Shown here piece by piece: positions 56,697 to 56,805 of a stretch of 64,000 bases of DNA. How positions within the stretch are numbered: position 1 is the stretch's first letter; each line of letters opens with the position of its first letter. The notes under the pieces were generated by a model. That model saw nothing but the letters and a program-made list of their open reading frames with translations, was not told the DNA's origin and did no database searches. The translations under genes and the position numbers were made by a program. This stretch comes from Sapientia aquatica (GTDB lineage Bacteria > Pseudomonadota > Gammaproteobacteria > Burkholderiales > Burkholderiaceae_D), in assembly GCF_004358105.1 (NCBI RefSeq), contig NZ_SMYL01000002.1:558001-622000 (forward strand), in the 5' to 3' direction.

Positions 56697-56759
56697 ATGG
56701 CAACCGAGATCGCGACAATTGGTGGGGGATGTTTTTGGTGTACAAAAATATCCTATTGA
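56697..56759 (+). pseudogene. msrA: msrA 5' end, cut by inserted DNA
   Basis: Sixteen codons match the start of peptide methionine sulfoxide reductase A, [16 protein letters not shown], including the active-site motif GCFWC. GAGG lies 5 bases before the ATG. From about 56745 the sequence departs from MsrA (KISY then stop) and becomes AT-rich. The conserved continuation of MsrA after CFWCTEA is absent up to the window edge. The gene has therefore been split within its 5' end by the element that follows. The missing 3' part would be expected at the element's far end. Confidence 0.82.
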
Positions 56760-56805
56760 TTATTTGTGTATATAAATCAATGACTTAGTTTGTTGTATTT
56801 TGATA

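Follow-up and report, generated by a model that had tools for sequence, protein, structure and literature searches.

Introduction

Replacement of a protein N-terminus by integration of a mobile element into the 5' end of its gene is already known for dusA and prfC. In dusA islands such as IMEVchUSA3, a mobilizable element in the 5' end of the gene supplies a new in-frame N-terminus, and expression of the re-fused gene was shown with a lacZ fusion (PMC8409611). Replacement of the dusA N-terminus had been proposed earlier for these islands (PMC4482086). SXT/R391 ICEs integrate in the 5' end of prfC (PMC2786100), and SXT gives prfC both a new promoter and a new N-terminus, as stated in PMC8409611. 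Of 73 tyrosine integrases of Streptococcus ICEs, 7 target 5' ends, and an insertion of that kind is described as leaving the protein N-terminus unmodified (PMC4701971). For msrA, the attL-attB of the Lactobacillus crispatus prophage PhiM247 includes 96 nt of the 5' end of the gene; its attP differs from attB by 15 nt and one deletion, and its excision was measured (PMC10763512). In the open PMC literature (titles and starts of abstracts, among the matches listed), no description was found of an msrA gene with an element-supplied active-site end.

The locus described here adds msrA of a Burkholderiales bacterium as a target. It is very likely that an integrative mobilizable element (IME) of approximately 11.7 kb entered the 5' end of msrA by tyrosine-recombinase site-specific integration, and that the gene was re-fused to an element-borne start, so that MsrA is kept as a chimera.

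Materials and Methods

The window, the whole stretch of DNA that was analysed (64,000 nucleotides), corresponds to bases 558001-622000 of contig C22 (839,783 bases) of the Sapientia aquatica genome (4.43 Mb, 58 contigs, 98% complete). Locus L002 is C22:614001-634000, and an L002 coordinate is the window position minus 56000. The same-genus comparison set comprised four genomes. Matches to msrA were obtained in three (G370, G371 and G372; loci L034, L035 and L036), and the fourth, which is 81% complete, gave none. For several of the database searches, records of the window's genome or of very near genomes may be left out. The features of the locus are listed in Table 1.

Table 1. Features of the msrA locus and its integrated element (window positions unless marked L002)
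Feature	Position	Strand	Remarks
moaC	56117..56635	+	ORF directly upstream of msrA; name from the sequence-only reading; adjoins msrA in L034-L036
msrA 5' stub	56697..56759	+	15 native codons and 2 nt, followed by element DNA; 20 codons plus stop
attL core inverted repeat	56727..56753		GGATGTTTTTG-GTGTA-CAAAAATATCC, 10/11 arm positions complementary
exact repeat TGGTGTAC	56736..56743		shared with attR at L002:12440-12447
element, left part	56744..64000		continues to window-equivalent 68439 (L002:12439)
GGGTGAWTT sites, left end	56808, 56820, 56859 (56808..56867)	+, +, -	putative integrase arm-type sites
208-aa ORF	56950..57576	-	no family match at E<=0.001
Type ISP restriction-modification enzyme, 1685 aa	57613..62670	-	PF18135 5.7e-100; PF22240 3.3e-51; PADLOC PDLC03597 2272 bits
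102-aa ORF	62721..63029	-	no family match at E<=0.001
relaxase, 445 aa	63184..64000, past window (L002:7184-8521)	-	first half MbeA-like
MobC/NikA-like	L002:8518-8907	-	PF05713/PF21983
131-aa ORF	L002:9070-9465	-	no family match
Replicase-family initiator	L002:9716-10711	-	PF03090 5.2e-37
tyrosine recombinase, 451 aa	L002:10908-12263	-	beside attR; Phage_integrase PF00589 6.1e-10; PHROG integrase 4.9e-29
GGGTGAWTT sites, right end	L002:12282, L002:12294		putative integrase arm-type sites
re-fused msrA	L002:12362-12922	+	element start joined in frame to host remainder; outside window

Results

The msrA gene is split at the left end of the element. A short frame that starts at an ATG at 56697 (with GTGAGG upstream and a second in-frame ATG at 56694) reads as an MsrA-like start through GGGCFWC and a threonine, continues with KISY and ends at a stop codon at 56757-56759. 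An earlier sequence-only reading had taken this frame for the msrA N-terminus, split inside the active-site motif by an integrated element. The msrA genes of the same-genus genomes begin much alike, and therefore the stub is a genuine msrA start; chance similarity to MsrA was rejected on the same ground. That reading had counted 16 msrA codons in the stub. The match holds through GGGCFWC, but codon 16 contains only two host nucleotides, and the host match stops at its second position, within TGGTGTAC. The native 5' end of msrA is thus 56697-56743, and AT-rich element DNA begins at 56744. Codon 16 (ACA) still encodes threonine because ACN is fourfold degenerate.

The remainder of msrA lies on the same contig, 11,704 bp downstream of the stub and beyond the window. 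Comparison with the msrA genes of the same genus assigns the two halves to the host. Upstream of the core, the stub is identical to G370 msrA at 25 of 29 nt and to G372 msrA at 22 of 29, compared to 18 and 17 of 29, respectively, for the element-borne version. The stub side does not discriminate with G371, which has the least similar of the three same-genus MsrAs, because the stub (17/29 nt) is no closer than the element-borne version (18/29). Downstream of the core, 48 of 60 nt at the right junction match G370 msrA, versus 18 at the left junction; the corresponding values are 42 and 13 for G372 and 38 and 18 for G371, which on this side still favours attR.

Empty sites are present in relatives. 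In three of the four same-genus genomes (L034, L035 and L036), moaC directly precedes an uninterrupted msrA, the intact junction that the sequence-only reading expected of element-free relatives. A total of 113 loci with msrA were found (4 from the window's own genome), and moaC was nearby only in L002 and these three loci; therefore the moaC-msrA order looks confined to the genus.

The two junctions share an imperfect duplicated core. Copies of TGGTGTAC start at L002:736 and L002:12440, a spacing of 11,704 bp, and 20 of the 23 nt of GGTGGNGGNTGTTTNTGGTGTAC are identical between the left and right junctions. The three differences all fall at third positions of the GGGCFWC codons and are synonymous. 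Since 12 of the 63 possible single changes in these codons are synonymous, three of three would arise by chance with a probability of approximately 0.007, a rough estimate that ignores any integrase-binding constraint. Strand exchange most likely took place among the GGGCFWC codons, within or beside TGGTGTAC. The two arms of the inverted repeat at attL are likely core-type sites of the integrase, flanking the region of strand exchange; arm pairing is 10/11 in attL, 8/11 in the inferred attP, 4/11 in attR and 3/11 in the inferred attB, and the poorer pairing of the inferred attP and attB speaks against the proposed integration. The attL core (56726-56754), inside the stub, also scores as a terminator-like hairpin, with 0.2 expected in shuffles. 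The motif GGGTGAWTT occurs five times in the element, never more than 170 nt from an end (in 500 shuffles the mean is 0.26 and the maximum 3), and these repeats would be arm-type sites of the integrase.

The sequence-only reading had named msrA as the attachment site of the element, and had asked for the msrA remainder and a direct repeat downstream. Both were found (the 8-nt repeat is exact), together with an adjacent tyrosine recombinase and the empty junctions. It had set two outcomes against itself, no remainder or duplicated core downstream and the same short frame in relatives without an insertion; neither occurred. It is extremely improbable that msrA was joined to unrelated DNA by a misassembly. 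The assembly is a draft of 58 contigs, yet a single 840-kb contig contains both junctions. Flanking the same 8 nt, each host part of msrA agrees with relatives, and a recombinase, repeats and the re-fused gene are present at the right end, as expected.

At the right junction, msrA is restored as an in-frame chimera. From the right end of the element come a GTG start codon, a different N-terminus and a second GGGCFWC copy, all in frame with the host remainder; such an element-supplied replacement of the 5' coding end is one defining feature of 5'-end target gene restoration of the dusA/prfC type, a working promoter from the element being the other. Re-fusion to an element-borne start was one of two outcomes left open by the sequence-only reading, and it is the one seen on the contig. 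The frame L002:12326-12922 is uninterrupted and covers positions 1-152 of the 153 of the PF01625 profile. The chimera scores 219.2 bits against PF01625, and the native form 218.5 bits; the stub flank joined to the downstream flank reads as an ordinary MsrA. Three in-frame starts precede the motif, at L002:12326, 12338 and 12362, and the last, preceded by GTGGGG, is probably the start of the chimeric gene. If so, 28 residues lead up to the junction in the chimera, compared to 15 in the native form. The match at C22:626413, window position 68413, is the sole MsrA-family match in the 98% complete genome (PF01625, 7.2e-65), and one MsrB-type SelR match is present. The best named records by MsrA (best 80 of 591) are from Herbaspirillum, Herminiimonas, Massilia and Undibacterium; by this measure the host is probably Oxalobacteraceae-like, within the Burkholderiales.

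The nucleophile of MsrA is the first cysteine of GCFWC. If exchange fell in TGGTGTAC, the catalytic-cysteine codon is now element DNA, because it lies upstream of the exact repeat. Taken together, the attP of the element evidently carries a surrogate msrA 5' end; integration strands the native start at attL, and at attR the element-borne start is joined in frame to the host remainder. MsrA would be kept as a chimera with an element-derived catalytic-cysteine codon.

Alternatively, the insertion may have inactivated msrA; the ORF downstream would then be a remnant that is not translated, or another msrA gained by horizontal transfer. The in-frame starts are all GTG, and a crude scan of L002:12200-12460 found no sigma-70-like promoter upstream of the chimeric start, as this alternative would have it. 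The same scan found none at the native msrA start either, and it says little on expression for that reason. Against inactivation, the re-fused gene is full-length on PF01625 and the genome's sole MsrA match, and from GCFWC on it is intact and looks like host sequence, with 84.8% identity to the G370 protein over 164 residues. A plain pseudogene was rejected because the chimera is intact, and inactivation in either form is quite improbable. With re-fusion as the preferred explanation, the chimeric msrA would be transcribed from an element promoter and active. The TGA stop of a nine-codon frame at L002:12336-12365 (ATGTGGATG...TTTATGTGA) overlaps the GTG at which the chimeric msrA likely starts (GTGA), and translational coupling of the two is possible.

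The element has a GC content of 38.8%, compared to 47.9% for the L002 flanks, and all eight of its scanned ORFs lie on the minus strand. Tyrosine recombinases share the catalytic residues R..HxxR..H..Y. In the recombinase beside attR the candidates are R264, H342, R345, H400 and Y410; in a MAFFT alignment, Y410 aligns with no tyrosine of the relatives L064-L068. The relaxase scores 79.7 bits against the MbeA model, far below the model's 500-bit cut-off, and matches no Pfam or PHROG family. Type ISP restriction-modification enzymes combine nuclease, helicase, coupler, methylase and specificity domains in a single chain. The enzyme of the element belongs to this class, with an Mrr-type nuclease, a helicase, a coupler, an N6-MTase and a specificity domain in one chain. 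Three small ORFs (L002:950-1576, 6721-7029 and 9070-9465) match no family. No family of a T4SS or conjugation apparatus was found among the eight ORFs scanned. With its own site-specific recombinase, recombined att sites that are empty in relatives, and relaxase and mobilization genes without conjugation machinery of its own among those eight ORFs, the element looks like an IME carrying a defence gene. An IME excises and is mobilized by a helper; this element may be mobile at present.

Given the replication initiator, the element could alternatively be a decayed island or integrated plasmid whose entry at an msrA-like motif was due to chance or homologous recombination, and not to site-specific recombination. 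The initiator is of a plasmid type (PF03090) and, among the matches listed, aligns with 12 plasmids at 94-98% cover and 30-33% identity, and the identity shared by the junctions could be read as microhomology. Homologous recombination, however, needs longer identity than the junctions share, and site-specific entry is favoured by the tyrosine recombinase gene next to the junction, by the arm-like repeats at either end and by the core, which forms an inverted repeat. This alternative is very improbable.

The integrase has distant relatives. Scans of the genome_contigs and viral_contigs collections found none (of 17 stretches that matched a pattern in the former and 2 stretches in the latter, none was a relative), and the attP-like pattern had 0 occurrences in viral_contigs. 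Against plasmids, 2240 records matched, none with 80% cover and all below 60% identity; against phages, 19 records matched with 40-43% cover. Among 369 genomes of the class, 53 matched at E<=0.001 including the window's own, the best other with 31% identity over half the protein. Among 195 genomes of the family, 12 matched at E<=1e-15 including the window's own, the best other at 39%. The same-family relatives L064-L068 align from residues 1-3 to 382-418 of 451 with 29-39% identity (L064, 39%; L065-L068, 29-32%). No msrA is present within their 1.5-kb flanks, and L065 and L066 adjoin tRNA-Val genes; the msrA preference of the element integrase may therefore be a change of target. At L064:1486-2820, one TAA lies inside the integrase match, yet an open 444-aa frame is present there, and it adjoins a lipoprotein-like ORF.

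The motif GCFW[CGS] was absent from integrase loci L004-L032. A relative of the element integrase at E<=0.01 was found in 0 of 29 msrA loci of relatives (L034-L062; flanks <=1.5 kb) and in 0 of 80 named msrA loci (L069-L148; flanks <=5 kb), scans that detect relatives of one integrase only. Of 59 genomes searched for the relaxase, one gave a match, the window's own. In the phage collection, 26 records matched MsrA at E<=10, and 25 among the matches listed cover 51-91% of the protein. The insertion is known from one genome, and repeated use of the msrA site is unproven. Elsewhere in the window, two tRNA-Pro(TGG) genes (25787-25863 and 27391-27467) lie on the same strand, 1.6 kb apart, with a thiolase gene between them; a second element at this position was rejected because the intervening ORF is the thiolase.

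Discussion

The msrA element resembles the dusA islands, in which a mobilizable element at the 5' end likewise gives the host remainder a new, in-frame N-terminus. The target differs, and the replaced end of msrA includes the catalytic-cysteine codon. In addition, the new N-terminus in dusA islands is of native length, whereas msrA, if it starts at GTG 12362, has gained length, with 28 residues instead of 15 up to the junction. Like SXT/R391 ICEs, the element is integrated in the 5' end of a conserved gene; those ICEs are conjugative and approximately 100 kb (PMC2786100), whereas the msrA element is 11.7 kb with no conjugation apparatus among the eight ORFs scanned. The att site of PhiM247 also overlaps the 5' end of msrA, but that element is a siphovirus prophage in a Lactobacillus. 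The statement in the sequence-only reading that 5'-end insertion is less common than 3'-end insertion is in line with the proportion reported for Streptococcus ICEs; unlike the 5'-end insertion described in that report, the msrA element changes the N-terminus (PMC4701971).

Only one MsrA match is present in the genome, and therefore an element without a replacement end would have left the cell without MsrA. The int-msrA intergenic region is 98 bp and includes two putative integrase arm sites. It is conceivable, though doubtful, that the cell relies on the element for methionine-sulfoxide repair, since both the start signals and the catalytic-cysteine codon of the only msrA found come from the element, and that integrase binding could tie MsrA output to the excision state.

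The stub might be annotated as a pseudogene and the real N-terminus of MsrA misjudged. Here an element uses the best-conserved coding motif of a housekeeping enzyme as its landing site, apparently without loss of the enzyme: strand exchange would fall among the active-site codons of the sole msrA detected, and the element brings its own synonymous version of these codons. With this insertion, msrA in a Burkholderiales bacterium joins dusA, prfC and others as a 5'-end target. Together with the Lactobacillus prophage PhiM247, it is a hint that msrA 5' ends may serve unrelated elements.
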